Source: Actinomycetes bacterium
Lineage (GTDB): Bacteria; Actinomycetota; Acidimicrobiia; Acidimicrobiales; Palsa-688
NCBI GenBank assembly: GCA_021811865.1
Contig: JAKAQB010000001.1
Location: 62,001-126,000 of the forward strand
Direction: 5' to 3'
DNA length: 64,000 nucleotides
Each line of letters opens with the position of its first letter. The first letter of the stretch is position 1. Of this stretch, positions 3,352 to 38,030 are shown one piece after another. A program made the position numbers and the translations under genes. The notes under the pieces are model-generated. The model was not told the origin of the DNA. It ran no database searches and saw only the letters and a list, made by a program, of their open reading frames with translations.

Positions 3352-3575
3352 GGCGCCTCCCGCTCCGATCGAGGCGAGGGGACGGGTCCAAGGAGCGACG
3401 GGGCTCGTGGGGATGCGCTCCGTGGCCACAGGCGCATAAACCTATCCCGTGCGCCCGCAATGCACGTGACCAGGCCCGATGCTGGTCTGCCGAAAGGTGA
3501 CCCGTGCGTGGCTCCCGCCAGCTTCGGGTAGTGCCTGCGCGTGCCGACGAGCGCCGGGCCGTGGGAGCCGCCGGC

Positions 3576-5171: not shown

Positions 5172-5284
5172 TCGGCGACGCCGGCGGGCCCTGGCGTGCC
5201 GCGGAGCAGCAGGTCGCAGGCCGTCGCTACTGTTTTCGGGACGGCGGGAGTGCCCCGCCGCCGGACCCGCCCGAGGGGGTGGCC

Positions 5285-7550: not shown

Positions 7551-7593
7551 GCCCAAGACTCTACCGGCGCGTCGGGATCGGGCCGGAGGGTTC

Positions 7594-9171
7594 TCACGCC
7601 GCCGCCCGGCCGTCGCCCTCCGGGTCCGGGTTGCCGGGGCGGAGGGTGATGAGCACCAGCGCGCCGGCCACGAGCACGAGCACCGCCGAGACCGTGAGGG
7701 CGACGGTCAACCCGGAGCGGAACGCAGCCCACGCGGCCTGGATCACCTGCTGGACCAGGCCGGCATGGCCCGCCCCGACCGAGCCCCCGGCGCCGGCGGT
7801 GTGGCCGCTTGACGGAACGCCGCCGCTCTCGATGGCTCGGAGGACGATGGCCTGGAAGTTGGGCGGGATCCCCAAGGTCTTGAGGCGTGCCCCGAGGTGG
7901 CCGCGGAGCTGGGCGTTGACGACGGCGCCGAGGACCGAGACCCCGGTGACGGCGCCGATCTCGCGGCTGGTGTTGGCCGTCGAAGCCGCCATGCTCGAGC
8001 GCGACGCCGGCACGGCGGCCAGGGCGGAGATGGTGATGGGCACGACGGTGATGCCGATGCCCACCCCGGCCACGGCGAGGGCGACCACCAGCTGCACCGT
8101 CGACGGGTTGGGGCGCAGGACCTCTGAGGTCCAGAGCAATCCGATGGCGAAGAGCACGCATCCGGAGGTGACGGGCCACCTGGCACCGACGCGGTAGGTG
8201 ACCCGGCCGGCCAGCAGCGCTCCAGCGACCAGCAGCAGCATCATCGGCAGGAATGTCAGCGCCACCTCGAAGGGCGTGTCGCCGACGACCTCGTCAAGGT
8301 AGAGGGCTGTGAAGAAGAAGATCGAAAAGGTCGCGAAGTAGGTGCAGAAAGCCGCCACGTTGGCGGTCGAGAAGGCGGGGATGCGCAGGTAGCGCAGGTC
8401 GAGCAGGGGATGGGCCGCCGTCCGCTCCCGGGCGACGAAGGCCGCCGCACCGACGAAGCCGAGCACGAAGAGCACGATCACCGCCGTGGACCCGTAGCCG
8501 GACTGCTCGCCGTTGATGATGGCGAACACGCAAGCTGTCAGAGCCCCCGCTCCGAGCAGCGCCCCCGCCGTGTCGACGCGTCGGGCGTCTGGGTCGGCGT
8601 TCTCCGGCAGGACGGCCGTGGCGGCGGCGAGGGCGAGCAGCCCGAAGCCGAGGTTGAACCAGAACACCGCCCGCCAGCTCGAGCTGCCGACGAGGACGCC
8701 GCCGATGACCGGCCCGACGGCGAGGGCCACGCCCGACACCGCTGCCCACACGCCTATGGCGCGGTCGCGCCGCTCGGCGTTGGGGTAGAGGTGTCGCAGC
8801 ATCGACAGGGTCCCGGGTTCGCTCGCCGCCGCGCCGAGGCCCATCACTGCCCGACCGGCGATCAGCACGTCCACGCCGGGCGCGAGGGCGCAGAGGACCG
8901 AGCCGGCGCAGAACACCGCTGTTCCCGACAGCATGACCTTCTTGCGCCCGAACTCGTCGGCGATCATGCCGCAGGCCAGCATTGCCCCGGCGAAGACGAG
9001 GGCGTAGCCGTTGACGACCCACTGCAGCGAGGTGACGCCGGCGCTCAGCTGGGTCTGGATGTTGCCGAGGGCGACGCTGACGATGGTGTTGTCGAGGAAG
9101 GTGAGGAACAGGAGCGAGCAGAGGACCGCAAGGCCCAGCGGATGGCGGTCACTGGAGGCCCCTGCCTCCAC
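7594..9171 (-). CDS. DHA2-type MFS drug:H+ antiporter (14 TM)
   Basis: 525 residues with 14 predicted membrane spans. Diagnostic motifs are FLDNTIVSVALGNIQ in helix 1, LQWVVNGYALVFAG in helix 2, ADEFGRKKVML for motif A and the antiporter motif C region GPVIGGVLVG. These place it in the EmrB/QacA (DHA2) group, which exports hydrophobic drugs or metabolites with proton exchange. The upstream frame continues far but has no matching sequence; GTG 9171 gives the usual short N-terminus before helix 1. It begins eight bases after the lipoprotein stop codon, so the two are very likely co-transcribed. Confidence 0.9.
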   Translation of the reverse strand: MEAGASSDRHPLGLAVLCSLLFLTFLDNTIVSVALGNIQTQLSAGVTSLQWVVNGYALVFAGAMLACGMIADEFGRKKVMLSGTAVFCAGSVLCALAPGVDVLIAGRAVMGLGAAASEPGTLSMLRHLYPNAERRDRAIGVWAAVSGVALAVGPVIGGVLVGSSSWRAVFWFNLGFGLLALAAATAVLPENADPDARRVDTAGALLGAGALTACVFAIINGEQSGYGSTAVIVLFVLGFVGAAAFVARERTAAHPLLDLRYLRIPAFSTANVAAFCTYFATFSIFFFTALYLDEVVGDTPFEVALTFLPMMLLLVAGALLAGRVTYRVGARWPVTSGCVLFAIGLLWTSEVLRPNPSTVQLVVALAVAGVGIGITVVPITISALAAVPASRSSMAASTANTSREIGAVTGVSVLGAVVNAQLRGHLGARLKTLGIPPNFQAIVLRAIESGGVPSSGHTAGAGGSVGAGHAGLVQQVIQAAWAAFRSGLTVALTVSAVLVLVAGALVLITLRPGNPDPEGDGRAAA

Positions 9172-23285: not shown

Positions 23286-24467
23286 TCAGGGGGCGAGAGC
23301 CATGGCGGCGTGGAGGGCGACGCCGGTGACCATGGCCTGCTCGTCCACCATCATGCGGTTGGAGTGGTTGGGCGCCGGATGCGGGTCGTCGGCGCGCGCC
23401 ACACCCAGGAAGGCCATCGACCCCGGAACCTCGCGCAGCACGTAGGACCAGTCCTCGGCACCCATCACCGGTGTCGGCATCGACACCACCCGGTCCGGGC
23501 CGAGAAGGGACGCTGCGGTGGCGATCGTGCGGGCGGCTGCCTTCTCGTCGTTGACAGTGACCGGGTAGCCGTTGTCAGCCAACTCGACCTCGGCCGCGCA
23601 GCGGTGGGCTGTCGCGATGTGGGTGGCCACCTCCCGCAGCCCGGCGACGACGAGGTCGCGGCTGGCGTCCGACACCGCCCGGATGGTTCCGTCGCAGAGG
23701 GCGACCTCGGGGATCACGTTGAACGCCGTCCCCGTCTGGATGCGCGTCACCGTGAGGACCGCCGGGTCGAAGGCGGGCACCCGTCGGGTCACCATCGCCT
23801 GGAGGGCCGTCACGATCTCGCAGGCGACCGGGACCGGGTCGACGGCGTCATGCGGCATGGAAGCGTGCCCGCCCTGGCCTGTCACGGTGATGCGGAACTC
23901 GTCGGCAGAGGCCATGAGCGTGCCACCCCGGGTCGCCACGAGCCCGGACGGCAGGTTGGCGATGCTGTGGATCGCGAAGGCGCGGTCGACGGTGCCGTGG
24001 CGGTCGAGCAGCCCCTCGTCGAGCATCACCCGGGCGCCTCCGTGGCCCTCCTCGCCCGGCTGGAACATGAACACGACGCGCCCCTGCAGCCGTCCCCGCC
24101 GGGCGCAGAGGATGCGGGCGGCGCCGACGAGCATGGCGACGTGGGTGTCGTGGCCGCAGGCGTGCATCCTCCCGTCGATGCTCGACGCGAACGGCAGGCC
24201 GGTGTCCTCCGGCATCTCGAGAGCGTCCATGTCGCCTCGGAGCAGCGTGGTCGGCCCCGGCTCGTCGCCGTCGAGCACGGCGACGACCGAGCTCAGGCTC
24301 CGGCCGGTCTCGATGCTGAGACCGAGGCCGTCGAGCGCCTCGAGGATCGTCGCCTGCGTCGCAGGCAGCTCGTTGCCGGTCTCGGGGTGAGCATGGATCC
24401 GCCTGCGGAGGGTTACCGTGTCATCGAACAGGCGGCTGGCTTCTTCGAGGAGGGTGGAGTCGGTCAC
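23286..24467 (-). CDS. M20-family amidohydrolase (N-acyl-amino-acid/hippurate hydrolase type)
   Basis: 393 residues. Metal-binding and catalytic motifs are LLRGDMDALEMPEDTGLPF, HACGHDTHVAMLVGAA, FMFQPGEEGHGGA with the catalytic glutamate, and a distal histidine near the C-terminus (PAPNHSNRMMVDE). The lid domain lies at about 180-290. This is the M20D group that removes acyl groups from amino acids. GTG 24467 is preceded by TATTCT and no ribosome binding site. It is divergent from the MurF-Alr gene, with 28 bp between start codons. A role in recycling N-acyl amino acids is possible; the substrate is not shown. Confidence 0.9.
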   Translation of the reverse strand: MTDSTLLEEASRLFDDTVTLRRRIHAHPETGNELPATQATILEALDGLGLSIETGRSLSSVVAVLDGDEPGPTTLLRGDMDALEMPEDTGLPFASSIDGRMHACGHDTHVAMLVGAARILCARRGRLQGRVVFMFQPGEEGHGGARVMLDEGLLDRHGTVDRAFAIHSIANLPSGLVATRGGTLMASADEFRITVTGQGGHASMPHDAVDPVPVACEIVTALQAMVTRRVPAFDPAVLTVTRIQTGTAFNVIPEVALCDGTIRAVSDASRDLVVAGLREVATHIATAHRCAAEVELADNGYPVTVNDEKAAARTIATAASLLGPDRVVSMPTPVMGAEDWSYVLREVPGSMAFLGVARADDPHPAPNHSNRMMVDEQAMVTGVALHAAMALAP

Positions 24468-24473
24468 GGGAGG

Positions 24474-24495: not shown

Positions 24496-26910
24496 GTGGA
24501 CGCCCTCCGGCTCGCCCAGCTCGCCGAGGTGGTCGGAAGCGTCCCGCTCCCAGCGGCGGAGTGCGGCCGGGTCGCCGAGGCGGTGACCATCCACTCCGAG
24601 CGGATCCCGCGCGCCGGGGTGTTCTTCGCCCTTCCCGGCTCCCGCACCGACGGGCACCGCTTCGTCGGGGAGGCATTCGCCAACGGCGCCGTCGCCGCCG
24701 TCGTCGCAGCGGGGCGGGGAGGCGGGGGCGCCGGCACGGTCATCGAGGTCGATGACCCGCTGCGCGCCCTGCAGGCCCTGGCGGCGTGGTGGCGGTCCCA
24801 GCTGCCCGCCGAGGTGGTCGCTGTCGTCGGGAGCAACGGCAAGACGGTCACAAAGGACGCCATCGTGCACTTCGCCGGCTACGGCCGGCGGGTGTACGGC
24901 AGCCCCGGCAGCTACAACAGCCAGATAGGCGTGCCTCTGGCCGTGCTCGGCATCCCCCGCGACTGCGACGTGGCGGTGATCGAGGCGGCGGTGTCCGACC
25001 CTGGCGAGATGGCCCGCCTCGAAGCCGTCGTCCGCCCCGACCGCGTGGTCGTGACCAACCTGGGCACCCGCTGGTCGTCCCGGTTCGCCGACCGCTGCGA
25101 GCAGGCCGCCGAGCTGCTCGTCATGGCCCGGGGGGCGTCGTGTGTGCTGGTCGGCGAGGACGCCCCCGAGCTCGCCGTGCCCCACCTGGTGACCGGCGCC
25201 AGCCCCGACCTGCCCCGCTTCGGTCCGCCCGTCCGGCTGCCGGAGGGGCTCGGCTCCGCCGTCGCCTTCCCGGACGGCGCGACCGGCAGCATCCTCGTGC
25301 GCACACCCTCGGACGCCGTCTTGCAGGACGTGCGCACCGCCATCACCGCCGCCTGGCTCCTCGGCGCCGGCGGGGCCATGCTGCTCGAAGCGGCCGGCGC
25401 GTACCGACCGACGGCCACCCGGCTCGAGATCTGGCGCAGCCCCGCGGGCGTCACCGTGGTGCGCGACGTCGCCACCCCCGATCCGATCGCCGCCGGCGCC
25501 GCCGTCCGGGCCGCCTCCAGCCTGGCGGGGCCGGGCCAGCGGTGCCTGGTCGTACTGGCCGAACCGCTCCGCGATCCGAGCCCTGCCTTCGCCTCCGCCC
25601 TCGTCGCCGAGGGGGCCGCCGCCGTGCTCGGGCTCGACGAACCGTCCCACCGCCAGGTCGCGGTGGCCCTCGCCGGCCGCGCCGAGGTCCGCCTCGTCGC
25701 CGACACCGACCACCTCCGGCACCTTCTGCTCGACGAGCTGCGCCCCGGCGACGTCGTGGCGGTGCAGTCGGCGCCCGAACGCGCCCTCGGCGACCTCACC
25801 GTGGCGCTGATGGAGTCGATGGCGCCCACCCGGATGTACCTGGACCTCGCGGCCGTCGAGGACAACGTGACCGCCTTCCGTCGCCTCGTCGGTCCGTCGG
25901 TGCGGATCATGGGGATGGTCAAGGCTCTGGCCTACGGAACCGACGCCGGCAGCGTCGCCTCCTGCCTCCAGGGCGCCGGCATCGACGCCCTCGGCGTCTC
26001 CGGCGCCGACGAGGGAGTGGCACTGCGGCGGGCGGGGATCAACGTCCCCATCCTCGTCCTCCTCGGCACCGCAGCGGAGCTGCCGAAGATGCTGCGCTAC
26101 AGGCTCACCCCTCTCGTGTACGGACCCGAGATGCTGGAGGCGGTCCTGTCGGCCGGCGACTTCCCCGTGCACGTCGAGGTGGACAGCGGGATGCACCGCA
26201 CCGGACTCCCGCCCGACGCGGCCCTCGGCGCCGTGCGCCGCCTCGGGCAGCGGGTAGCCGGGTTGATGACCCACCTTGCCTCGCCCGACGACCCCGCCGA
26301 GGACGCCGCCACGGCGGAGCAGCTGCGCCGCTTCCGGGAGGTGGACGCCGCCGCCGCCCACCTCGGCGTCCACGGCTTCGTCCGTCACGCCGCAGCCACG
26401 GCGGCGACCATCCGCCTGCCCGAAGCGCGCTTCGACATGGTGCGCATCGGCCTCGGGCTCTACGGTGTCCACCCCTCGCCGGCGACGGCGGCGCTGCTCG
26501 AGCTGCAATGTGCCGTCGGGCTCGTGTCGCGCATCATCGAGGTGGTGGACGTCCCCCCCGGCGAGCGGGTCGGCTACGGGGGCACCTTCACGGCGCCGGT
26601 GCCCGGCCGGCGGGTGGGGGTCGTGCCGGCCGGCTACCACGACGGCGTGCCACGCGCCGCGTCCAACGCCGGCGTCGTCGTCGTCGCCGGCGCCCGCTGC
26701 CCGATCGTCGGGCGTGTGTCGATGGACTCGATGGCCGTCGACCTGACGGCGAGCCCCGAGGCGGGGGTGGGCACGGACGTGCTCCTCTACGGGCGCCAGC
26801 ACGACTGGTCGCTGCCGGTGGAGGAGCTCGCCCAGTCGAGCGGCACGATCGCCCACGAGCTGATGGCCCGCCTCGGGCCGAGGGTGCAGCGCATCTTCAC
26901 CCGTCACTGA
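24496..26910 (+). CDS. Bifunctional MurF (UDP-MurNAc-tripeptide:D-Ala-D-Ala ligase)-alanine racemase fusion
   Basis: 804 residues. Residues 1 to about 430 are a Mur ligase: N-terminal UDP-binding region (IHSERIPRAGVFFALPGSRT), ATP loop GSNGKTVTKD at 112-121 and the SYNSQIGVPL motif typical of MurF. From about 445 an alanine racemase follows: MYLDLAAVEDNV, the PLP lysine at about 476 in MVKALAYGTD, VDSGMHRTG, the catalytic tyrosine near 694 (VGYGGTF) and VSMDSMAVDL. The KAxAYG loop departs from the usual KADAYGHG. MurF-Alr fusions are known from Bacteroidetes. D-Ala made by Alr would feed the next gene's ligases. GTG 24496 is supported by the -10 hexamer. Confidence 0.9.
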   Translation: MDALRLAQLAEVVGSVPLPAAECGRVAEAVTIHSERIPRAGVFFALPGSRTDGHRFVGEAFANGAVAAVVAAGRGGGGAGTVIEVDDPLRALQALAAWWRSQLPAEVVAVVGSNGKTVTKDAIVHFAGYGRRVYGSPGSYNSQIGVPLAVLGIPRDCDVAVIEAAVSDPGEMARLEAVVRPDRVVVTNLGTRWSSRFADRCEQAAELLVMARGASCVLVGEDAPELAVPHLVTGASPDLPRFGPPVRLPEGLGSAVAFPDGATGSILVRTPSDAVLQDVRTAITAAWLLGAGGAMLLEAAGAYRPTATRLEIWRSPAGVTVVRDVATPDPIAAGAAVRAASSLAGPGQRCLVVLAEPLRDPSPAFASALVAEGAAAVLGLDEPSHRQVAVALAGRAEVRLVADTDHLRHLLLDELRPGDVVAVQSAPERALGDLTVALMESMAPTRMYLDLAAVEDNVTAFRRLVGPSVRIMGMVKALAYGTDAGSVASCLQGAGIDALGVSGADEGVALRRAGINVPILVLLGTAAELPKMLRYRLTPLVYGPEMLEAVLSAGDFPVHVEVDSGMHRTGLPPDAALGAVRRLGQRVAGLMTHLASPDDPAEDAATAEQLRRFREVDAAAAHLGVHGFVRHAAATAATIRLPEARFDMVRIGLGLYGVHPSPATAALLELQCAVGLVSRIIEVVDVPPGERVGYGGTFTAPVPGRRVGVVPAGYHDGVPRAASNAGVVVVAGARCPIVGRVSMDSMAVDLTASPEAGVGTDVLLYGRQHDWSLPVEELAQSSGTIAHELMARLGPRVQRIFTRH

Positions 26911-26916
26911 CACCGG

Positions 26917-26922
26917 TACGCT
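26917..26922 (+). promoter_or_regulatory. -10 element of leaderless promoter within the cell-wall cluster
   Basis: TACGCT ends eight bases before GTG 26931, seven bases after the murF-alr stop, so the Ddl-Ddl gene may be transcribed separately as well as by read-through. Confidence 0.45.
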
Positions 26923-26930
26923 TGGCGGCT

Positions 26931-29300
26931 GTGCCCCGGTTGCGCATCGCCCTCCTCTTCGGCGGGCCCTCCCCGGAACGGGGCATCTCCCTCAACTCGG
27001 CCCGCTCCGTCGCCGACCACCTCGAGGGCGCCGGGGTGGTCCTCGCCGAGCTGCTGTACATCGACTGCGCCCTCCGGGTCTTCGCCGTGTCCCGGGCGTT
27101 GTTGTACTCCAACACCCCCGACGACTTCGACTTCAAGCTGTCGGTGTCCTCGTCGCCGCTCACACCCGGCGAGCTGGTGGCCCGGCTGCGCGGCTGCGAC
27201 CTGGCGTTCCCCGTGATGCACGGCGAGTTCGGCGAGGACGGCGGCGTGCAGAGACTGCTCGAGGACGCCGGCGTCGCCTACGTGGGTTCCACCCCCGAGG
27301 CGTGCGCCGTTGCCTACGACAAGCACCGGGCCCAGGAGCGGCTGGCGGCCGCCGGGATCGCCACCGTCCCCCACGACCTGCTGCGCGCCGGCGCCGGCCT
27401 GCCCGAGCTCCCCGACGGGGTCCTCGTCTCCAAGCCGACGGCGGGCGGGTCGAGCCTCGGGGTCACCGTCCACTGGCCGGGAGCCGACCGTGACGCCGGC
27501 CTCCTGCGCCAGGCGGCGCGCTACGGCGCCGTGATCGTCCAGCCTTGGGTGGCCGGGGTGGAGGTGACCACCGTGGTGGTGGAGGGCAGGGCCGGGCCCG
27601 TCGCCCTCATCCCCGTCGAGGTGGAGCTGCGCGATCGCTCCCCGCACCAGATCCTCTCCTACCGCCACAAGTACCTGCCGAGCGACGATGCCCGCTACCA
27701 CTGCCCGCCCCGGTTCGCGCCGGCGCAGGTGGACGCGGTGCGCGCCACGGCGGAGCGCGTCTTCGCCATCCTCGGGCTGCGGGACTTCGCCCGGATCGAC
27801 GCCTGGCTCACCGACGACGGGAGGATCGTCGTCTCAGACGTCAACCCCGTCAGCGGGATGGAGCAGAACAGCTTCCTCTTCATCCAGGCCGCTCAGGCGG
27901 GCATGACCCACCGCGACGTCCTCCGCCTCGTCGTCTCCCGGAGCTGCGCCCGCTCCGGTCTCGCCCCGCCGCTCGCGGACGAGCGTCCCGCAGCCGACCG
28001 GGAGCCCATACCCGTGCTTTTTGGGGGGACGAGCGCCGAGCGGCAGGTGTCCGTGCTGTCGGGCACCAACGTGTGGCTGAAGCTGGTGCGCTCGGCCCGC
28101 TACGAGCCGGAGCCGGCCCTGCTCGACGCCGACGGCAGCGTGTGGATGCTGTCGTACCCGGCGGCGCTGCGCCACACCGTCGAGGAGATCCGGGCGGCGT
28201 GCCAAGAGGCAGCCGGCGGCAGGCAGGAGACCGAACGGTTGGCGGCCGACATCCACCGGCGGCTCGGCCTGAAGCTTCCCTCCCTCGACCTGCCGCGGCG
28301 GGTGAGCCTGGAGGAGCTCGTTGCCGGCCGGCGCTTCGTCTTCAACGCCCTGCACGGTGGCGCCGGCGAGGACGGGACGATGCAACGCCGCTTGGACCAG
28401 CTGGGGGTGGCCTACAACGGGTCGGGGCCGGAGGCATCAGCGCTGGCGATGGACAAGGAGCTCACAGGGATGGCCGTGCTCGCCGCCGCCGTGGACGGCG
28501 TTGGCACCGCACCCCGGCTGCGGGTCGGCCTGCCCGCCAGCGCCGAGGTGTGGGACCGGGCCGTCGCCACGTGCGGCACCGCCACCCTCGTCGTCAAGCC
28601 GCTGGCCGACGGGTGCTCGGCCGGCGTGGTCCCGTTGCGGGGTCGGGGCGAGCTGGTGGCCTACCTGGACCACCTCCAGCAGGGGTCGACCCGCATACCA
28701 GCGGGGACTTTCCCCCTGCTCGGCGACGACCAGGTTGTCGAGCTTCCCCCCCAGGGCACCGGCGCGCTGCTGCTCGAGGCCTTCATCGAGACCGACCGCG
28801 TCGCCGTCGTCGAGGGCGGCAACGGGACCCGACGCCTCGACTGGCGCGGCACCGGCGGTGGCTGGGTGGAGGTCACGGTGGGCCTGGTCGGCGCCGCCGG
28901 CTCCCTGCATGCCCTGCCACCGAGCATGACCATCACCACCGCCGGCGTGCTCAGCCTCGAGGAGAAGTTCATGGGTGGCACCGGCGTCAACATCACCCCG
29001 CCCCCGGCCCCGCCGCTCGGCCCTGTCCGCCCCGAGGCCGTCGCCGCCGCCCGCCGTCGGATCGAGGCCGTCGCCGAGGCGCTCGGCGTCGAGGGCTATG
29101 CCCGCGTCGACGCCTTCCTCCACGTCGCCACCGGCGAGGTGATTGTGATCGAGGCCAACACCCTACCGGCGCTCACCCCCTCCACCGTGCTCTACCACCA
29201 GGCCTTGGCCGATGACCCGCCCCGCTACCCCCGGGAGTTGCTGGAGGAGATCATCGAGCTCGGGCTCGCTCGCCGCAGGGCGCTGGCGGCGACGACATGA
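26931..29300 (+). CDS. Tandem D-alanine--D-alanine ligase fusion (two ATP-grasp units)
   Basis: 789 residues holding two complete Ddl-like units. Unit 1 (about 1-350): LLFGGPSPERGISLNSARS, HGEFGEDGGVQ, KPTAGGSSLGV, FARIDAW and the metal motif as DVNPVSGMEQNS. Unit 2 (about 355-789): VLFGGTSAERQVSVLSG, HGGAGEDGTMQ, VVKPLADGCSAGV, YARVDAF and EANTLPALTPST. Ordinary Ddl is 300-370 residues. Unit 1 has Asp for the usual metal-binding Glu and an altered PGMT loop, so one unit may be structural or use another second substrate. It sits between MurF-Alr and MurL, and its stop overlaps the murL start (ATGA). Confidence 0.88.
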   Translation: MPRLRIALLFGGPSPERGISLNSARSVADHLEGAGVVLAELLYIDCALRVFAVSRALLYSNTPDDFDFKLSVSSSPLTPGELVARLRGCDLAFPVMHGEFGEDGGVQRLLEDAGVAYVGSTPEACAVAYDKHRAQERLAAAGIATVPHDLLRAGAGLPELPDGVLVSKPTAGGSSLGVTVHWPGADRDAGLLRQAARYGAVIVQPWVAGVEVTTVVVEGRAGPVALIPVEVELRDRSPHQILSYRHKYLPSDDARYHCPPRFAPAQVDAVRATAERVFAILGLRDFARIDAWLTDDGRIVVSDVNPVSGMEQNSFLFIQAAQAGMTHRDVLRLVVSRSCARSGLAPPLADERPAADREPIPVLFGGTSAERQVSVLSGTNVWLKLVRSARYEPEPALLDADGSVWMLSYPAALRHTVEEIRAACQEAAGGRQETERLAADIHRRLGLKLPSLDLPRRVSLEELVAGRRFVFNALHGGAGEDGTMQRRLDQLGVAYNGSGPEASALAMDKELTGMAVLAAAVDGVGTAPRLRVGLPASAEVWDRAVATCGTATLVVKPLADGCSAGVVPLRGRGELVAYLDHLQQGSTRIPAGTFPLLGDDQVVELPPQGTGALLLEAFIETDRVAVVEGGNGTRRLDWRGTGGGWVEVTVGLVGAAGSLHALPPSMTITTAGVLSLEEKFMGGTGVNITPPPAPPLGPVRPEAVAAARRRIEAVAEALGVEGYARVDAFLHVATGEVIVIEANTLPALTPSTVLYHQALADDPPRYPRELLEEIIELGLARRRALAATT

Positions 29301-30622
29301 CCCAAGGGGGCTTCGGCCCGGCGGCGTCGTTCCGCTACGCCGGCTCGGACCTGGACCCCGCCGCCGGGGTGCTCCGGTGCCGCTACGAGCTCGACGGCCA
29401 CACCTTCGAGGAGCGGGTCGCCTCCCCGGGCGGGGAGTGGGGCACGCCGGCGGCCGCCGAAGCCGCCCGGCTCGTCTACCTGCTGGCGGGCGTCTCCTAT
29501 TACAAGGCGGGCGCCCCGCCAGTCGTCGACCTCGCTGATACCCCCGTCCGGGGCGGGGACCTCGACATGCTGCGCCTGTTCTACGTCGAGGGGCTCGGGG
29601 AGCTCGCCCACCGCAACGGCCTCGACCTCACCGGGCTGCGCTTCGAGGGCGGGGCTCCGGCGGGCGCTGCCGCCGCCCTTGCTGCGCCGGCCCGGGGGCG
29701 CCCCCTGGTCCCCTTCGGTGGCGGCATCGACTCGATCGTCACCGTGGAAGCCGTGCGGGCGCGCGCTGCGAGCACAACGCTGTTCGTGCTGAGCGGCGAG
29801 GGCGACCGCTTCGCCGCCATCGAGGACGCCGCTGCCGTCACCGGCCTGCCGGTCGCCCGGGCGAGCCGACGCATCGATGAGACCATCCTGTCGTCCGCGT
29901 CCCGGGGTTGGCTCAACGGGCACGTGCCGGTGACCGGCATCCTGTCAGCGATCGCGGTCCTCGTCGCCGTCGTGCACGGCCACGACGCCGTGGTCATGTC
30001 CAACGAGTGGTCGGCGTCGGTCGGCAATGCTGACGGCGTCAACCACCAGTGGTCCAAGGGCTGGGCGTTCGAGCAGGCGCTCTGCGCGCAGCTCGCCCGA
30101 TCCTTCGCTCCCTCGGCACCCGGGTACTTCTCCTTCCTCCGGCCGTGGAGCGAGCTGTGGGTCGCCCGGCGCTTCGCCGGGCTCGACCGCTACCACCCGG
30201 TGTTCCGCAGCTGCAACCGGGCGTTTGCCGTTGACCCAGGCCGGAGGTTGGATCACTGGTGCGGCGAGTGCGACAAGTGCTGCTTCATCGACCTGATCCT
30301 GGCGCCGTGGCTGCCCGCTGACCGGCTGGGAGCGGTGTTCGGCGGGAGCGAGCCGCTCCGTGACCCAGCCCGCACGGCGCAGTTCCGCACCCTCGTCGGG
30401 CTGTCGAGCGACCCGAAGCCGTGGGAGTGCGTCGGCGACGTCGAGGAGTGCGCCGCCGCCGCCGTCCTGGCAGCTGGCCGCCCGGACCGCTCCGACACGG
30501 CCTTGCTGCAGGCCCTGGCCGCCGACCTCGGCCCGTCCACCCCCAACGCCGACCGCCTGCTCGCCCCCATGGGGCCGAGCGCCGTGCCCGATCGGTATGC
30601 GCTCCACGATCTCCTGGTCTGA
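29297..30622 (+). CDS. murL: MurL-type UDP-MurNAc-L-Ala-L-Glu epimerase
   Basis: 441 residues. A PP-loop-like motif PFGGGIDSIV at 139-148 suggests ATP use, and a zinc-type cluster C322-x2-C325-x2-CC (CGECDKCC) lies near the C-terminal third. The size, the GGGxDS loop, the MSNEWSAS segment and above all the pairing with a MurD-like gene match MurL, first described in Xanthomonas, which inverts the terminal L-Glu of UDP-MurNAc-L-Ala-L-Glu using ATP. ATG 29297 overlaps the Ddl-Ddl stop, and its own 3' end overlaps the next start by 26 bp, so translation of three genes is coupled. Assignment is from recalled family features. Confidence 0.8.
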   Translation: MTQGGFGPAASFRYAGSDLDPAAGVLRCRYELDGHTFEERVASPGGEWGTPAAAEAARLVYLLAGVSYYKAGAPPVVDLADTPVRGGDLDMLRLFYVEGLGELAHRNGLDLTGLRFEGGAPAGAAAALAAPARGRPLVPFGGGIDSIVTVEAVRARAASTTLFVLSGEGDRFAAIEDAAAVTGLPVARASRRIDETILSSASRGWLNGHVPVTGILSAIAVLVAVVHGHDAVVMSNEWSASVGNADGVNHQWSKGWAFEQALCAQLARSFAPSAPGYFSFLRPWSELWVARRFAGLDRYHPVFRSCNRAFAVDPGRRLDHWCGECDKCCFIDLILAPWLPADRLGAVFGGSEPLRDPARTAQFRTLVGLSSDPKPWECVGDVEECAAAAVLAAGRPDRSDTALLQALAADLGPSTPNADRLLAPMGPSAVPDRYALHDLLV

Positions 30623-32024
30623 CCTGCGTGGGCGCCGCGTCGGCGTGTGGGGCGCCCGCGTCGAGGGAGCCGCCAACCTCCGCAAGCTCGCGGAGCTCGG
30701 CGTCGCCCCGGAGGTCGTCGTCGACGACCACGTGGCGGGGCCGGTGGAAGGTCACGAGGTGGTCGGCGGCGAGGCCGGGCTCGGCCGGCTCCAGGCGTGC
30801 GACGTGGTGGTGAAGTCGCCGGGCATCAGCCGTCACCTCCCCGAGGTCGCCGCCCTGGAGGAGGCCGGCGTGACCGTCACCGGCGGTCTCGCACTGTGGC
30901 TGGAGGAGGCGGACCTCGACCGGGTCGTGTGCATCACCGGGTCGAAGGGCAAGAGCACGACGACGGCGGTCGCCGGGCACCTCGCCACCGGGCTCGGGCG
31001 GATGGTGTTCGTCGGCGGCAACCTGGGCCTGCCGCCGTGGGACCCGGCGGCCACCGACCCGGGCGAGGTGGCCGACCTGTGGGTGCTCGAGACCTCGAGC
31101 TTCCAGGCCGCTGACGTCGCCACCTCCCCGCCCGTCGTGGTCGTCACGGCGCTCTCCCCCGACCACCTCGACTGGCACGGCGATGTCGCCACCTACTACA
31201 GGGACAAGCTGTCGCTTTGCAGCCGGCCTGGCGCCGAGGTCACCGTCGCCAACGGCGACGACCCGACCGTGCACGAGCACGAGGTCCTGCTCGGGCCGCG
31301 GGTCCGCTGGGTCAGGCTCGAAGCGGGTCCGCCACCGTCCTGGGTCGAGAGGCTCGGGCTGCTCGGCGACCACAACCGCCGCAACGCCCTCTTGGCGGCC
31401 GCCGCCCTCGACGCCGCCGGCGTCGCGGGGGCCGGCGACACGCAGCGCCTCGAGCGTGCCGCCGCCGGCTTCGAGCCCCTCCCCAGCCGGCTGCGGCCCG
31501 TCGCCACCGTGGCCGGGGTGACCTTCGTGGACGACAGCCTCTCCACCAACGTGCTACCAACCCTGGCTGCCCTCGATGTGTTCGACGGCCGCCGGGTTGC
31601 CCTGCTGGCCGGCGGCCACGACCGGGGCATCGATTACACACCCCTGGCGGAGCGCCTGGTGCGCCGGCCGTCCCCGACGCTGCTCGTAGCCCTCCCCGAC
31701 AACGGCGAGCGCATCACGTCGGCGGTGCGGGAGGTCGCCGCGGGTCGCCGGTCGCCGGCGGTGCGGGAGGTCGACGACCTGGCGGACGGCGTCCGCCAGG
31801 CCTGGCAGTGGGCCCGGCCCGACGGCGTGGTGCTCCTGTCACCGGCCGCGGCCAGCTTCGGGCGCTACCGGGACTACAGGGACCGCTCAGCCGCCTTCGC
31901 GGCGGCGGTCGCCGCCCTCGGCAGCTCGGGTCGCTCGGGTGGCTCGGGTCGCTCGGCACAGGAGCCCCGGATCAGCCACGATGCCCCCGGAGGGCGGCGA
32001 CCACCCCGTCGTAGCGGCCCGTGA
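30597..32024 (+). CDS. murD2: MurD2-type UDP-MurNAc-L-Ala:L-Glu ligase
   Basis: 475 residues with a Mur ligase fold: N-terminal Rossmann part (GVWGARVEGAANLRKLAELG), ATP loop TGSKGKSTTT near 114-123, GNLG, ETSSFQ, DHLDWHGD, and GDHNRRNALLAAA. At positions where E. coli MurD has lysines in NDSKATN and GGDGKSADF, this protein has DDSLSTN (Leu315) and GGHDRGIDY (Arg343); the serine in SPAAAS is kept. Loss of these substrate-proximal lysines suggests altered amino-acid specificity, in line with MurD2 adding L-Glu. ATG 30597 lies within murL. The Ser/Gly/Arg-rich tail overlaps convergent putA by 53 bp. Confidence 0.8.
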   Translation: MRSTISWSDLRGRRVGVWGARVEGAANLRKLAELGVAPEVVVDDHVAGPVEGHEVVGGEAGLGRLQACDVVVKSPGISRHLPEVAALEEAGVTVTGGLALWLEEADLDRVVCITGSKGKSTTTAVAGHLATGLGRMVFVGGNLGLPPWDPAATDPGEVADLWVLETSSFQAADVATSPPVVVVTALSPDHLDWHGDVATYYRDKLSLCSRPGAEVTVANGDDPTVHEHEVLLGPRVRWVRLEAGPPPSWVERLGLLGDHNRRNALLAAAALDAAGVAGAGDTQRLERAAAGFEPLPSRLRPVATVAGVTFVDDSLSTNVLPTLAALDVFDGRRVALLAGGHDRGIDYTPLAERLVRRPSPTLLVALPDNGERITSAVREVAAGRRSPAVREVDDLADGVRQAWQWARPDGVVLLSPAAASFGRYRDYRDRSAAFAAAVAALGSSGRSGGSGRSAQEPRISHDAPGGRRPPRRSGP

Positions 32025-35000
32025 GATTGCCGTGGCGATGCAGGCTGACGCTCACCGCCTGCTCGCGCACCCAGCGCTCGGCCTCGACGGCCGGGTCGGC
32101 CACCACCGGCGAGCGGTCCACCCACACGCCCCGGTCGTAGGCGGCGAGAAGGGTGTCGCCGGCGACGGCGCCGAGGATCCGTACCTTGTCCCAGCCGCCG
32201 GCGCCCGCCCGGACGACGAAGTCCGGGTCATCCTCCACCATCGACACGGCCTCCCCGCCTCGTGGCTCGGCGCTGCTGACCGTCACGGCGGCACCTGCGG
32301 CATGGCCGGCGGCGGTGGCGAGGGCGAGGTCGCGGTCGGTCACTCCCGAGCCCGCCCGGATGAGGACGCAGTGCAGCGGGAGGTGGCGCAGCACGTTCGC
32401 CTCGGCGGCCAGGGCGCTCGGGTCGACCGGGGCGAGCGCGCCTGTCAGCTCGGCGCGCACGGCGTCGCCGAACGCCTGAGGCGTGCCCTCCCAGCTCCCA
32501 CGCCACCTCCCGAGGCTGGCAACGTAGTGGGGCCCCCCGGCCTTGGCGCCGGGCCCCACCACCGACCGCTTCCAACCGCCGAAGGGTTGGCGCCGGACGA
32601 CGGCACCAGTGATGTGGCGGTTGACGTAGAGGTTCCCGGCCTCCACCCGGTCGACCCAGCGGGAGATCTCGGCCGGGTCGAGGCTGTGCAAGCCGGCGGT
32701 GAGACCGTAGGCCGGCCGGTTCTGCCACGTGATGGCCTCGTCGAGGTCGGCGGCCCGCATGAGGCCGAGCACCGGTCCGAAGCACTCGGTGAGGTGGAAG
32801 GGCGAGCCGGGGGCCACGCCGAGCTTGATGCCAGGCGACCACAGCTGCGGGTTGGCAGGGTCCTGGCGGGGCTCGAGCAGCCACCTCTCACCGGGCTCGA
32901 GGCGGGTGAGCGCCGAGGCCAACGGCTCCTCCGCCGGTCGGATCAGAGGACCGAGGGTGGTCGCCGGGTCGTAGGCCGGGCCGGGCCGGAGGCTGGCGGC
33001 GGCATCTGCGAGTTGGCGGCGGAACCGCTCGTCGTCGTAAACCGACGCCTCGACGATGGCGAGGCTCGCTGCCGAGCACTTCTGTCCGGCGTGGCCGAAC
33101 GCCGAGTGCACCAGGTCAGCGACCGCCCGGTCGAGGTCGGCCGCGGCGGTGACGACGATCGCGTTCTTGCCGCTCGTCTCGGCGTGCAGGTGCAGGTCCG
33201 GCCGCCATCCGAGGAACAGCCGAGCAGTGTCCCACGACCCGGTCAGCACCACCGCCCCGACGTCAGGGTGGGTTACCAGGCGCCGGCCGGCATCGTCGTC
33301 CGCTGTGGGAACGAAGTGCAGGGCGCTGCGGGGCGCGCCGGCGTCCCAGCAGGCCTGGGCGATCGCCCAGGCCACGGCGACCGTCTCGGGAGCTGGCTTG
33401 AACACGACCGTGTTGCCCGCCGCAAGCGCCGCCAGCACCCCGCCGGCGGGGATGGCGAGGGGGAAGTTCCACGGTGGTACCACGGCGACGGTCCCGATCG
33501 GCTGGAAGCGGTCGCCGGCCGCTTCCAGCTCGGCCGCCCGGTCGGCGTAGTAGCGGGCGAAGTCCACCGCTTCGGACACCTCCGGGTCGGACTCGGAGAA
33601 GGTCTTGCCGCCGTCGTGGGCCATCAGTCCGATCAGCTGGCCGCGCCGTTCTGAGAGGGCGTCGGCCACGGCGTGCAGCACCTTGCCTCGTGACGTTCCC
33701 GGAACCGCCGCCCATCCCTCGCGACCCGCCACCGCTCTGGCCACGGCACGGTCGACGAGCTCCACTGGTGACTGCACCCAGCGGTAGGCCGGGCGGCCGG
33801 CGGCGGAGGGGTCCCGGCCCACGCCGTCCGCCGGCGACTCCACGGCGTCCCCATCCACGACGGCGGGGATGACGTGGCCGTCCGGCCACGGCTCCGCCGT
33901 GAGGTGGTCCACCAGCCACCGGCGGTTGGCCGCTCTGGTGAGGTCGGTGTCGGGCTCGTTGGCGAACCAGTCAGAGGTGGCGCCCGTCGCCGGGGAGGCA
34001 GGTCCGGTGCGGTCCTGTGACCGGAGGGTCGTCACGGTGGGCTCGTGCGACGCGGCGACCGACGCCTCGAACCGGCGGCGCTCCTGCCCCCACGCCGGCG
34101 AGCCGACGCCGAGGGCGAACTGGTTGCGGAGGAAGTTGTCGGGCCCGGTGTTCTCGTCGAAGCGCCGTACCAGATAGGCGATGGCCGACTCGTGATCGGC
34201 GCGGGCGACGATCGGGGCGTACAGCAACAGGCTGCCGGCGGCGTCGCGCACCGGGTGGGCGGCGGAACCGGCCATGCCCTCGAGCATCTCCACCTCCACC
34301 ATCCCCGGCACCTGGCGGTCGGCTGCCAGCGTGAGCGCCCAGGCAAGCTCGAAGAGGTTGTGGCTGGCTACCCCGAGCCGGACGGCGCCGGCGTTGGACG
34401 GATCGAGGGCGACGTCGAGCATCCGCTTGTAGTTGGCGTCGACCTCTGCCTTGGTCGGGTACGGCGCCGGCGCCCACCCCGCCAGCTCCGCCTCCACCTT
34501 CTCCATGGCGAGGTTGGCGCCCTTCACGATCCGGACCTTGACCACGCCTCCCCCGTCCGCGCGGCGCTGGCGCGCCCACGACATCAGGTCCTGCAGGACG
34601 GGGAGGGAGTCGGGGATGTAGGCCTGCAGGACGATGCCGGCGTCGAGGGGCCGGTAGGCGGGTTCGGAGAGCACCCGCTGGAACACCTCGACGGTCAGCT
34701 CCAAGTCGCGGTACTCCTCCATGTCCAGGTTGACGAACTTCGCCGGATGGGCTTCACGAGCGGCGTCGTAGAGGCGGCGAAGCCGCCCGGAGACCCGGTC
34801 CACCTCACTGTCGAAGGCGGCGTGGTTGATCTGGGCGCAGACGGACGTGACCTTCACCGACACGTAGTCCACGTCGGGCCGGCGCAGCAGCCCGACGACG
34901 CCGGCGAGGCGCCGGTCTGCCTCGTCGTCGCCGAGGATCGCCTCCCCGAGCAGGTTCAGGTTGAGGCGGATGCCCTCGGCCCGCCGGCGGGCGATGTGGC

Positions 35001-35397
35001 GACGCAGCGGCCGGTCCTCGGCGGCGATCACGTAGCCGGCGAGCTCGGCGCGCAAACGAGCGGCGACGAGGGGCATCACCAGGCGGGGGTATCGCCTGGC
35101 GGCCGCTGTCCCGGCGCTGAGCAGCAGGCGGTCGCCGGGGCCGAGGAAGCGGGGGGATCCGAGCTCGTCGACCAGCGCCCGCAGCTGCCCCGCCGCCCGG
35201 GCCGGTTCCCGGGTCCTCAGCACCTCGTCGGTGAGAGCGATGATGAACGCAAGGCCGGAGCGGTCGTCGAGGAGGCGCGCCACGCGCGCCTGCGCCGCCC
35301 GCTCCCGCCGTCCCCGCTCCGCATCGGTGCCTGCTTGGAGCCGCTCGGCGAGGCGGACGGCCCGCCCGGTCAGGATGTCGTCGCGTGCAACCGCCAC
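31972..35397 (-). CDS. putA: Bifunctional proline dehydrogenase/P5C dehydrogenase
   Basis: 1141 residues. The N-terminal FAD barrel (about 80-430) has VSVKVTSVCAQIN, KFVNLDMEEYRDLELT, VKVRIVKGANLAMEKVEAE and GVASHNLFELAW. The aldehyde dehydrogenase domain (about 520-980) has VVPPWNFPLAIPAGG, ETSGKNA and the nucleophile in GHAGQKCSAA. A C-terminal tail resembling the PutA conserved domain completes it. No N-terminal ribbon-helix-helix is present, so it is not the trifunctional repressor type. It converts proline to glutamate via P5C with substrate channelling. GTG 35397 is chosen for the TACGCT hexamer before it. It is divergent from the helicase gene. Confidence 0.93.
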   Translation of the reverse strand: MAVARDDILTGRAVRLAERLQAGTDAERGRRERAAQARVARLLDDRSGLAFIIALTDEVLRTREPARAAGQLRALVDELGSPRFLGPGDRLLLSAGTAAARRYPRLVMPLVAARLRAELAGYVIAAEDRPLRRHIARRRAEGIRLNLNLLGEAILGDDEADRRLAGVVGLLRRPDVDYVSVKVTSVCAQINHAAFDSEVDRVSGRLRRLYDAAREAHPAKFVNLDMEEYRDLELTVEVFQRVLSEPAYRPLDAGIVLQAYIPDSLPVLQDLMSWARQRRADGGGVVKVRIVKGANLAMEKVEAELAGWAPAPYPTKAEVDANYKRMLDVALDPSNAGAVRLGVASHNLFELAWALTLAADRQVPGMVEVEMLEGMAGSAAHPVRDAAGSLLLYAPIVARADHESAIAYLVRRFDENTGPDNFLRNQFALGVGSPAWGQERRRFEASVAASHEPTVTTLRSQDRTGPASPATGATSDWFANEPDTDLTRAANRRWLVDHLTAEPWPDGHVIPAVVDGDAVESPADGVGRDPSAAGRPAYRWVQSPVELVDRAVARAVAGREGWAAVPGTSRGKVLHAVADALSERRGQLIGLMAHDGGKTFSESDPEVSEAVDFARYYADRAAELEAAGDRFQPIGTVAVVPPWNFPLAIPAGGVLAALAAGNTVVFKPAPETVAVAWAIAQACWDAGAPRSALHFVPTADDDAGRRLVTHPDVGAVVLTGSWDTARLFLGWRPDLHLHAETSGKNAIVVTAAADLDRAVADLVHSAFGHAGQKCSAASLAIVEASVYDDERFRRQLADAAASLRPGPAYDPATTLGPLIRPAEEPLASALTRLEPGERWLLEPRQDPANPQLWSPGIKLGVAPGSPFHLTECFGPVLGLMRAADLDEAITWQNRPAYGLTAGLHSLDPAEISRWVDRVEAGNLYVNRHITGAVVRRQPFGGWKRSVVGPGAKAGGPHYVASLGRWRGSWEGTPQAFGDAVRAELTGALAPVDPSALAAEANVLRHLPLHCVLIRAGSGVTDRDLALATAAGHAAGAAVTVSSAEPRGGEAVSMVEDDPDFVVRAGAGGWDKVRILGAVAGDTLLAAYDRGVWVDRSPVVADPAVEAERWVREQAVSVSLHRHGNLTGRYDGVVAALRGHRG

Positions 35398-35403
35398 GGC
35401 CCG

Positions 35404-35409
35404 AGCGTA
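35404..35409 (-). promoter_or_regulatory. -10 element of leaderless putA promoter
   Basis: On the minus strand TACGCT ends six bases before GTG 35397; no ribosome binding site is visible. Confidence 0.5.
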
Positions 35410-35468
35410 CCGGTGGCTCCCGGCGCTGGTTCGTTGGTGTAGGCCATCGGCGGGCAGCATGGGGCCGT

Positions 35469-38030
35469 ATGGTGGCCCTCTCGACCCTCGCGGAGATCGC
35501 CGCCACGGCACGCCACGCCGATGAGGCGTTCGAGGGTTTCGTGGGTTGGGTCGGCCAGCAGGGCATCACCCTCTACGCCGCCCAGGAGGAGGCGCTCCTA
35601 GAGGTCTTCGCCGGCAGCCATGTGATCCTCAACACCCCGACGGGGTCCGGCAAGAGCCTGGTCGCCCTGGGCGCTCACGTGGCCGCAATGGCCGAGGGCC
35701 GGCGCTCGTTCTACACGGCGCCGATCAAGGCGCTGGTCTCGGAGAAGTTCTTCGCCCTCTGCGAGCAGCTCGGCGCCGAGCGGGTCGGGATGCTGACCGG
35801 CGACACCACCATCAACCCGGTGGCGCCGGTCGTGTGCGCCACCGCCGAGATCGTGGCCAACATGGCGCTGCGTTCCGGCGCCGGCGCTGCTGTCGACCAG
35901 GTCGTGATGGACGAGTTCCACTTCTACGGTGACCCCGACCGCGGTTGGGCGTGGCAGGTGCCGCTCCTCGAGCTGACCGGCGCGCAGTTCCTCCTGATGT
36001 CGGCGACGCTCGGGGACACCGGCCGGATCGAGGAGGGCCTGTGCCGGCGTACGCGGCGGCCGGTTGCAGTGGTCCGTTCGGCCATCCGCCCGGTTCCCCT
36101 CCACTTCGAGTACCGGCGCACCCCGCTGCACGAGACCGTCGACCAGCTCCTCTCCTCCGACCAGGCGCCGCTCTACGTCGTGCACTTCACCCAGGCCGCC
36201 GCCGTCGCCTTTGCGCAGGCGATGACGTCAGCGTCGGTGACCACCCGCGCCCAGCGGGAGGACATCGCCGACGCGGTCGCCGGCTTCCGGTTCGCGCCCG
36301 GGTTCGGCCCGACGCTCGCACGGCTGGTCCGCCACGGCATCGGCGTCCACCACGGCGGCATGCTCCCCAAGTACCGCCGGCTGGTGGAGCGGCTCACCCA
36401 GGCGGGCCTGCTCCGCGTCGTGGCCGGCACCGACACCCTCGGTGTGGGCGTCAACCTTCCGCTGCGCACGGTTGTCTTCACCGGACTGGCCAAGTACGAC
36501 GGCACCACGTCGCGCCTGCTCACCGCCCGGGAGCTCCACCAGATCGCGGGAAGGGCTGGGCGGGCCGGTTTCGACACCTCAGGTCTCGTCGTCGTGCAGG
36601 CCCCCGAGCACGTCATCGAGAACGAACGGGCCGTCGAGAAGGCTGCGGGCGACCCCAAGAAGCTACGCCGCCTCGTCCGCTCCCAGCCACCGAAGGGGTT
36701 CGTGCCATGGGATGAGGCCGTCTTCGCACGGATCGTCTCGTCGCCCCCCGAGCCGCTCAGCCCTCACCTGCGGGTGACGCACGGCCTCGTGCTCGACGTG
36801 CTCGACCGGCCGGGCGACGGGTGTGCCGCGCTGCGCCACCTCCTCGTCGACAACGACGAGGAGCGCCCGGCCCAGCGCCGCCTCGCCCGCCGTGCCATCG
36901 CCTTGTACCGCTCGCTTCTGGGCGCCGGTGCCCTCGAGCGCCTCGACGCGCCCGACCACAAGGGACGCTGGGTGCGGGTCACGACCGACCTGCAAGCTGA
37001 TTTCGCACTCGACAGCCCCCTCAGCCCCTGGGTCCTCGACGTCCTGCCCCACCTCGACCCCACATCCCCGACGGCCGCCCTCGACGTGGTGAGCGTGGTG
37101 GAGGCGACGCTCGAGGACCCGGGCGTGGTGCTCGCCGCCCAGCTGGACCGGCTGCGGCGGGAGGTCCTCGCCGAGCTCAAGGCCCAGGGTGTCGAGTACG
37201 AGCAACGCTTGGAGGCGCTCGACCAGCTCGAGCACCCCAAGCCGCTGCGGGACTGGACCTACGACCGGTTCAACGCCTACCGCGCCCGCCACCCGTGGGC
37301 AGGCGACTTCGACATCCACCCCAAGTCCGTCGCCCGGGATCTCTACGAGCGGGCCATGACCTTCGGCGAGTACGTCGCTCACTACGGCCTGGCCCGCTCC
37401 GAGGGCCTGCTGCTGCGCTACCTGAGCGAGGTGTACAAGGGTCTGGTACGGACCGTCCCCGAGGATGGGAAGACCGACGACTTGGTGGACCTCACCGAAT
37501 GGCTGGGGGAGGTCGTCCGGCAGGTCGACTCCTCCCTCATCGACGAGTGGCGTCGGATGGCGGAGGTCGCCGCCGGGGCGGTGGGGGCTGGTGGCGCGGT
37601 GGGGGCTGGTGGCGCGGTGGGGGCGGGGCTGGCTGCCGACGCTGCCGCAGGGGCACCACCGGTGACGGCCAACCGCCGGGCTTTCCGGGTCATGGTCCGC
37701 AACGCCGCGTTCCGACGCGTCGAGCTCGCCGCCCGGCGCGAGCCGGCGGCTCTGGCGGCGAGCGAGGCACCTGGAGGCTGGAGCAGGTCGGAGTGGGCCA
37801 CCGCCCTGGACCGGTACTTCGCCGTGCATCCCTCGATCGGCACCGGCGCGGAGGCCCGGTCTGCCGCCTGGCTGCGGATCGAGGAGGAGCCCGACCGGTG
37901 GCGGGTCCGCCAGGTGCTCGACGACCCCGAGGGCTGGCACGACGCGGCGCTCGTCGGATCCGTCGGGCTCGCCGACTCGGATGCCGCCGGCGAACCGGCG
38001 TGGCGGACCGAGAGGGTGGAGGTCCCGTAG
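35469..38030 (+). CDS. Ski2-like DExH helicase (DUF3516 family)
   Basis: 853 residues. Walker A is LNTPTGSGKS, the Walker B box is DEFH (VVMDEFHFYGDPDRG), motif III is MSATLGD, and the C-terminal lobe has VVAGTDTLGVGVNLPLRTVVF and QIAGRAGRAG. The long C-terminal part is the DUF3516 region typical of actinobacterial Ski2/Mtr4-like helicases, thought to act on RNA. A Gly/Ala/Val-rich insert at about 703-720 is encoded by an 18-bp tandem repeat. ATG 35469 has no clear ribosome binding site; a GTG follows in the next codon. The family lacks a precise function. Confidence 0.9.
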   Translation: MVALSTLAEIAATARHADEAFEGFVGWVGQQGITLYAAQEEALLEVFAGSHVILNTPTGSGKSLVALGAHVAAMAEGRRSFYTAPIKALVSEKFFALCEQLGAERVGMLTGDTTINPVAPVVCATAEIVANMALRSGAGAAVDQVVMDEFHFYGDPDRGWAWQVPLLELTGAQFLLMSATLGDTGRIEEGLCRRTRRPVAVVRSAIRPVPLHFEYRRTPLHETVDQLLSSDQAPLYVVHFTQAAAVAFAQAMTSASVTTRAQREDIADAVAGFRFAPGFGPTLARLVRHGIGVHHGGMLPKYRRLVERLTQAGLLRVVAGTDTLGVGVNLPLRTVVFTGLAKYDGTTSRLLTARELHQIAGRAGRAGFDTSGLVVVQAPEHVIENERAVEKAAGDPKKLRRLVRSQPPKGFVPWDEAVFARIVSSPPEPLSPHLRVTHGLVLDVLDRPGDGCAALRHLLVDNDEERPAQRRLARRAIALYRSLLGAGALERLDAPDHKGRWVRVTTDLQADFALDSPLSPWVLDVLPHLDPTSPTAALDVVSVVEATLEDPGVVLAAQLDRLRREVLAELKAQGVEYEQRLEALDQLEHPKPLRDWTYDRFNAYRARHPWAGDFDIHPKSVARDLYERAMTFGEYVAHYGLARSEGLLLRYLSEVYKGLVRTVPEDGKTDDLVDLTEWLGEVVRQVDSSLIDEWRRMAEVAAGAVGAGGAVGAGGAVGAGLAADAAAGAPPVTANRRAFRVMVRNAAFRRVELAARREPAALAASEAPGGWSRSEWATALDRYFAVHPSIGTGAEARSAAWLRIEEEPDRWRVRQVLDDPEGWHDAALVGSVGLADSDAAGEPAWRTERVEVP
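37578..37624 (+). repeat. 18-bp in-frame tandem repeat (2.6 copies)
   Basis: Two perfect 18-bp units starting GCGGTGGGGGCTGGTGGC at 37578 and 37596, plus an 11-bp partial unit, encode AVGAGG repeats in a linker of the helicase. Copy number may vary between strains. Confidence 0.8.

Follow-up and report, generated by a model that had tools for sequence, protein, structure and literature searches.

A known D-glutamate route joined to a rare D-alanine cassette in a candidate cell-wall precursor operon of an Acidimicrobiales genome

Fusions of MurF with the alanine racemase Alr, as represented by the PRK11930 family, are typical of Bacteroidota. Among D-Ala-D-Ala ligases (Ddl), Ser150 and Tyr216 are reported to be conserved in the enzymes that make D-Ala-D-Ala alone, and the replacement of these residues by Ala and Phe in Escherichia coli DdlB resulted in weak D-Ala-D-lactate (D-Ala-D-Lac) activity, as described in PMC7691350. 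For D-Glu, an alternative route, the MurD2/MurL pathway, is known from Xanthomonas oryzae (XOO_1320/XOO_1319) and from Micromonospora and Salinispora, the orthologues of which were confirmed in vitro according to PMC8788868. Here, we analyze a stretch of 64,000 nucleotides from an Actinomycetes bacterium of the order Acidimicrobiales (assembly GCA_021811865.1, contig JAKAQB010000001.1, positions 62,001 to 126,000; GC content 70-75%), hereinafter the window, in which four consecutive genes encode a MurF-like/Alr fusion, a double Ddl, MurL and a MurD2-type ligase. The module is a known D-Glu route which, in the near relatives of the window, is joined to a rare D-Ala cassette. Judging from the sequences, the MurD2/MurL route and the Alr and Ddl genes together appear to make both D-amino-acid parts of the wall peptide. 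We consider it probable (roughly 0.65) that the four genes form a housekeeping cell-wall precursor operon located outside the division and cell wall (dcw) cluster and acting through the steps proposed below. The genes are arranged as follows.

24496-26910, + strand: MurF-like/Alr fusion, 804 amino acids (MurF-like part ~24496-25815, Alr part ~25816-26910)
26931-29300, + strand: double D-Ala-D-Ala ligase, 789 amino acids (N half 26931-27965, C half 27996-29300)
29297-30622, + strand: MurL, 441 amino acids (match to NF041275)
30597-32024, + strand: MurD2-type ligase, 475 amino acids (TIGR01087, 262.7 bits)

The presence of these four genes at this place, as proposed in the initial annotation, was confirmed, the Pfam and NCBIfam matches being far beyond chance. 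The names given initially to Alr, both Ddl domains and MurD are borne out by these two databases. With the start codons chosen in our analysis, the Ddl and MurL genes overlap by 4 bp and the MurL and MurD2-type genes by 26 bp. The named homologues closest to the module proteins are from Acidimicrobiales, so that the source is probably an uncultured representative of this order.

The genome-wide tests were made on relatives of the window, which were collected by scanning a genome collection with a MurL alignment; 80 loci were retained of 576 confirmed stretches. In the three closest of them (loci L001, L002 and L003, from genomes G001-G003, respectively), the C half of the Ddl lies directly upstream of MurL, which is followed by the ligase, and MurL of L001 is 92% identical to that of the window. 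The glutamate racemase MurI (TIGR00067) was above cut-off in none of 25 MurL genomes chosen from the 80 listed loci, with one weak match of 27.8 bits (G021), and had no match in G530, a genome of another actinobacterial order discussed below; the control search with the same model gave matches in 10 of 14 control genomes, 8 of them above cut-off. Similarly, D-amino-acid transaminase (TIGR01121) was above cut-off in none of 4 genomes, with weak matches reaching 86.5 bits, and exceeded the cut-off in just 1 of the 14 control genomes. A single MurD above cut-off was found in each of G002 and G003, in both cases the ligase of the module itself, and the best MurD match in G001 (143.8 bits) was the truncated module gene, so that none of the three genomes contained another MurD above cut-off.

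The dcw clusters of the relatives show the corresponding gap. The order is murE-mraY-ftsW-murG-murC in G001 and murE-mraY-ftsW-murG-murC-murB in G003, and in G002 murE-mraY-ftsW and murG-murC are located on two different contigs; the places of murF and murD are empty in all three. MurC and MurE, noted previously as missing from the module, are found in the dcw clusters of these genomes. In G530, with the order murE-murF-mraY-ftsW-murG-murC, murD alone is missing, and MurL and MurD2-type genes adjoin each other on a different contig. Furthermore, a MurD-type partner follows MurL within 600 bp in all 71 of the 80 listed loci that have more than 1.4 kb of downstream sequence. Given that no murI above cut-off was found (0/25, and 0/1 for G530), nor another MurD above cut-off in G001-G003, together with the murD gap in the dcw clusters, MurL and MurD2 are probably the main D-Glu route in this clade, one of the two roles suggested initially, and the combination of murI and a full canonical mur set with a MurL homologue closer to QueC-like families than to MurL was not found in the relatives.

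MurL matches NF041275 over residues 10-426 of 441 (325.2 bits, E = 5.1e-97), below the cut-off of 700 bits of this Xanthomonadales model, which was nevertheless the sole NCBIfam match at E = 0.001. The PP-loop motif is conserved, and a fold search showed that the predicted fold is like that of the QatC and QueC PP-loop enzymes. There was no PADLOC match for MurL, no queuosine or defence setting was seen among the genes scanned, and we found no paper joining MurL with QueC or QatC, those retrieved being unrelated by title.

The MurD2-type ligase exceeds the TIGR01087 cut-off (262.7 against 211.95 bits) and keeps all nine catalytic residues tested, namely K115, N138, E157, H183, K198, N268, N271, R302 and D317 (E. 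coli numbering; the published numbering omits Met1). At the positions linked to specificity in the X. oryzae enzyme (PMC8788868), the window has Arg at K348 (X. oryzae R358), Leu at K319 and Phe at L416. At A414, however, it carries Ala in place of Pro, and at D182 (X. oryzae E197) Asp in place of Glu. We compared 71 of 76 MurL-linked ligases, the other 5 being too short: Arg at position 348 is shared by 70 of them and Leu at 319 by 58. At the D182 position, Glu is present in all 8 ligases from Lysobacteraceae and Asp in 58 of the 63 others, so Glu197 marks a subgroup. An E197D change is reported to have altered the stereospecificity of X. oryzae MurD2 (PMC8788868), and given the Asp at this position, we refer to the window protein as MurD2-type. 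Beyond its conserved part, this ligase carries a Gly/Ser/Arg-rich tail of ~30 residues.

What is least expected in the module is the double Ddl, one half of which is altered. Two Dala_Dala_lig_N and two Dala_Dala_lig_C stretches were identified with Pfam (E = 1.7e-40 and 6.1e-32), and the sequence identity is 32% between the two halves and 32% with E. coli DdlB. We split 116 of 120 homologues into halves (P0121, P0125, P0135 and P0226 were dropped) and found the ATP-grasp core, comprising E15, K97, K144, S151, E187, K215, R255, D257 and N272, in both halves of all 116. The N half has Ser150, Tyr216 and E180Q in 116/116 and E270D in 83, Glu being present in the remaining 33. By contrast, the C half carries S150C, Y216F and S281T, each in 116/116; the first two of these changes sit at positions controlling the use of D-Ala versus D-lactate, and, from the residues, the C half looks retooled. 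Outside the module, no Ddl match in G001-G003 exceeded 45.4 bits (matches listed down to ~26 bits). The two halves are split over separate contigs in G002 and G003, and, from the positions of the pieces at contig ends, we infer that they belong to one gene.

In the fusion protein, the Alr part is well supported by Pfam (E = 2.7e-54 and 1e-37) and by TIGR00492 (290.8 bits, cut-off 168), and its motifs KALAYG and GYGGTF, which we take to hold the catalytic Lys and Tyr, align with KANAYG and SYGATY of a solved Alr structure. The MurF half reached 160.8 bits against TIGR01143, the cut-off being 288.6, and the whole fusion reached 479.6 bits against PRK11930 (NF008897; cut-off 804). The name 'Alr-MurF fusion protein' is already present among the JGI names in the database. 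The structural model of the fusion had a mean predicted local distance difference test score of 83.0 and a predicted template-modelling score of 0.56, and its fold-search matches were filled by racemases.

To follow the MurF half residue by residue, we aligned it with E. coli MurF as the reference, 97 close homologues and 23 more distant fusions, the two sets being divided by rank. None of the 97 close homologues retains the carbamoylated lysine K202 (Leu in the window), and 15 retain the catalytic His H188 (Trp in the window). The HNxxN and YNAN motifs are lost. N285 is kept in 0/97 (Asp in 97) and N336 in 1/97 (Asp in 96). Of the 23 distant fusions, 20 retain K202 and 21 retain H188, and Asp replaces N285 in 18 and N336 in 23. 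According to PMC3060825, MurD, MurE and MurF cannot function without the carbamoylated lysine. By eye, no acidic residue of the MurC kind was seen in the aligned stretch after E158. The P-loop residues K116 and T117 and also E163, presumably the Mg-binding Glu (fusion numbering), are present in the window. Moreover, G001 (357 bits) and G003 (302 bits, cut at its start) contain canonical MurF proteins in which the catalytic residues are present, with Gln in place of N282. It is thus very unlikely that the fused domain serves as the pathway's MurF, and dipeptide attachment by it, as claimed originally, is not supported, the key catalytic residues being lost and a canonical MurF being present in two relatives. 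Because the new residues are so uniform, the domain looks retooled, not decaying.

The MurF-like-Alr fusion and the double Ddl make up a rare cassette, which, among the loci examined, is joined to MurL-MurD2 only in the near relatives of the window. Of the 118 genomes of the order of G001 (E = 1e-30; up to 8 candidates scored per genome) and the 396 genomes of its phylum (E = 1e-60; up to 2 candidates), one each gave a double Ddl, G001 itself in both cases, as did 1 of 397 genomes of another actinobacterial order (up to 2 candidates), namely G530, where the MurF-like-Alr gene adjoins the double Ddl (68 bp) without MurL, the MurL and MurD2-type genes being on another contig. Named homologues include those of Dactylosporangium, Pseudonocardiaceae and Solirubrobacteraceae. 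Such a Ddl lies directly upstream of MurL in 3 of the 80 listed MurL loci, and 45 of these loci, each with more than 8 kb of upstream and 5 kb of downstream sequence, had no Ddl match at E = 1e-8. Among hand-picked rows (13 of 120 for MurL, 31 of 120 for Ddl and 29 of 120 for MurF-Alr), 27 contig sizes were common to Ddl and MurF-Alr, 2 of which also occurred in the MurL rows, and 2 more were common to MurL and Ddl; these shared sizes are a lead for linkage of the cassette, not a count. Viral contigs gave 33 pattern matches to the double Ddl, none of which was confirmed, and the 3 of 72,556 plasmid records that matched it did so over 42-44% of the query at ~31% identity and were rejected as not being the double form. 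We found no paper on the double Ddl or on an Alr-MurF fusion in actinobacteria; two papers retrieved deal, judging by their titles, with chlamydiae and obligate intracellular bacteria. With such a Ddl in 3/80 MurL loci, the combination is unusual, as suspected from the outset.

A different arrangement was observed in eight other MurL-bearing actinobacterial genomes (L095-L102), where an unusual Mur ligase ending in DLPDHYP or DLPDQYP is located near a single Ddl with scores of 146-163 bits, which fall short of the family cut-off; the two may represent another divergent D-Ala pair. These Mur ligases were considered as canonical MurF references and dropped, since they look unusual, and E. coli MurF was used instead.

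In the proposed pathway, MurL, as a QueC/QatC-type PP-loop enzyme, would adenylate the alpha-carboxylate and convert L-Glu to D-Glu with the release of AMP; the reactions have been shown for family members, and the mechanism has been proposed in print. The fused Alr would supply D-Ala, and the double Ddl would make the C-terminal dipeptide, for which, from the residues, the N half is predicted to act as an ordinary D-Ala-D-Ala ligase, the C half being a putative ligase of altered specificity or a helper. The MurF-like domain, very unlikely to be a working MurF, would probably still bind Mg-ATP and may sense nucleotides or precursors or act as a scaffold, and a separate canonical MurF, such as that seen in 2 of the 3 closest relatives, would attach the dipeptide.

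Several observations weigh against a housekeeping operon acting in this way. Because G001-G003 are fragmented bins for which no completeness is stated, the gene absences are soft. MurL scores under the strict NCBIfam cut-off (325.2 against 700 bits), and the Asp at the X. oryzae Glu197 position is evidence against the use of L-Glu by the window ligase. The MurF-like half keeps the P-loop lysine K111 (96/97), E158 (97/97) and R316 (95/97), MurC is described as working without the carbamoylated lysine, by means of a glutamate (PMC3060825), and G002 has no canonical MurF above cut-off. Furthermore, the changes at N285 and N336 are also seen in distant fusions that mostly keep the lysine, so that these two alone are no sign of lost activity. 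In G003, ~6.8 kb separates MurF-Alr from the double Ddl, an interval that contains genes for LytR-CpsA-Psr, a 4Fe-4S protein and NrfD (L094, ~960-7760). Finally, canonical versions of Ddl (357.7 bits), Alr (323.7) and MurF (390) are also encoded in G530, and a second Alr is present in G002 (240.7 bits); with these enzymes at hand, an accessory role of the cassette fits. Under that explanation, the MurF-like-Alr fusion and the double Ddl would supply a modified wall with a second, modified dipeptide or a depsipeptide (D-Ala-D-Lac or D-Ala-D-Ser, for instance), and the cassette would lie beside MurL-MurD2 only by chance. The separate contig of the cassette in G530, the rarity of the double Ddl and the C-half changes at both residues tied to D-Ala-D-Ala specificity agree with it; however, no other Ddl was found in G001-G003, the N half keeps the D-Ala-D-Ala residues, and no VanH- or VanX-like domain was detected in the 26 open reading frames of the window scanned with Pfam. 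We hold this explanation to be unlikely. The suggestion that the genes could be a second precursor set accordingly finds a divided answer for the D-Ala half: the canonical enzymes of G530 and the second Alr of G002 speak for it, and the lack of another Ddl in G001-G003 against it.

That the module is self-contained, with the fused MurF attaching the dipeptide, is improbable. The fusion architecture, the kept P-loop lysine, E158 and R316, the empty murF place in the dcw clusters of G001-G003 and the want of a canonical MurF above cut-off in G002 would suit such a module, but the carbamoylated lysine (0/97), the HNxxN and YNAN motifs and, mostly, the His (15/97; Trp in the window) are gone, and G001 and G003 have a canonical MurF. 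Least credible is the possibility that the 441-residue protein is another QueC-like PP-loop enzyme, not an epimerase, and its partner an ordinary D-Glu-adding MurD. Its fold matches to QatC and QueC, its score under the NF041275 cut-off and the Asp at the Glu197 position could be read in this way, but the MurL model is its sole NCBIfam match, a MurD-type partner follows in 71 of 71 loci, the relatives yielded no other D-Glu source, and the ligase shares Arg348 with 70/71 and Leu319 with 58/71 of the MurL-linked ligases.

Besides the module, three further features of the window are of note.

23286-24473, - strand: M20 amidohydrolase (Pfam; TIGR01891, 332.8 bits), divergent, upstream of the module
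31972-35511, convergent: PutA-like proline oxidase, downstream of the MurD2-type ligase
18147-20960, - strand: peptidase with pro-kumamolisin activation, S8 and TIG domains, elsewhere in the window

The 3' end of the MurD2-type gene overlaps the PutA-like gene by 53 bp. The M20 amidohydrolase is divergent to MurF-like-Alr also in L093 (G002), L156 (G001) and L159 (G003); it is a conserved neighbour that we do not claim for the pathway, a tie to dipeptide turnover being possible.

If the housekeeping operon is real, a very conserved pathway has been naturally rewired: neither murD nor murF occupies its place in the dcw cluster, D-Glu is made by way of MurD2 and MurL, and the D-Ala arm is built anew from a double ligase and a MurF-like-Alr fusion that has been retooled. 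The double ligase would allow the divergence of Ddl specificity after duplication to be tested directly, and the QueC/QatC fold would provide a structural lead for the unexplained mechanism of MurL. More speculatively, and in our view doubtfully, a single operon could give cells of this clade two different wall stems.

Compared with the known systems, the window resembles the MurD2/MurL pathway of X. oryzae, Micromonospora and Salinispora in the adjacency of both genes, in the catalytic residues and in the absence of a detected murI in the relatives, but differs from the X. oryzae pair in having Asp at the Glu197 position of the ligase and in being joined to D-Ala genes. MurL is similar to the QatC and QueC PP-loop enzymes in its predicted fold, yet the identity in these fold matches is 10-16%. 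The fusion has the domain order and the Alr half of PRK11930, but it scores below the cut-off of that family and its MurF half is devoid of the carbamoylated Lys, HNxxN and YNAN. Both halves of the double Ddl have the ATP-grasp core of E. coli DdlB, and the N half its Ser150 and Tyr216, whereas the window protein combines two ligases per chain, with E180Q and E270D in the N half and S150C, Y216F and S281T in the C half. The C half is reminiscent of LmDdl2, the Leuconostoc-type D-Ala-D-lactate ligase, in that it likewise has Phe216 and has lost Ser150, but carries Cys rather than Ala at position 150, with weak sequence similarity (1ehi, 33.7 bits).

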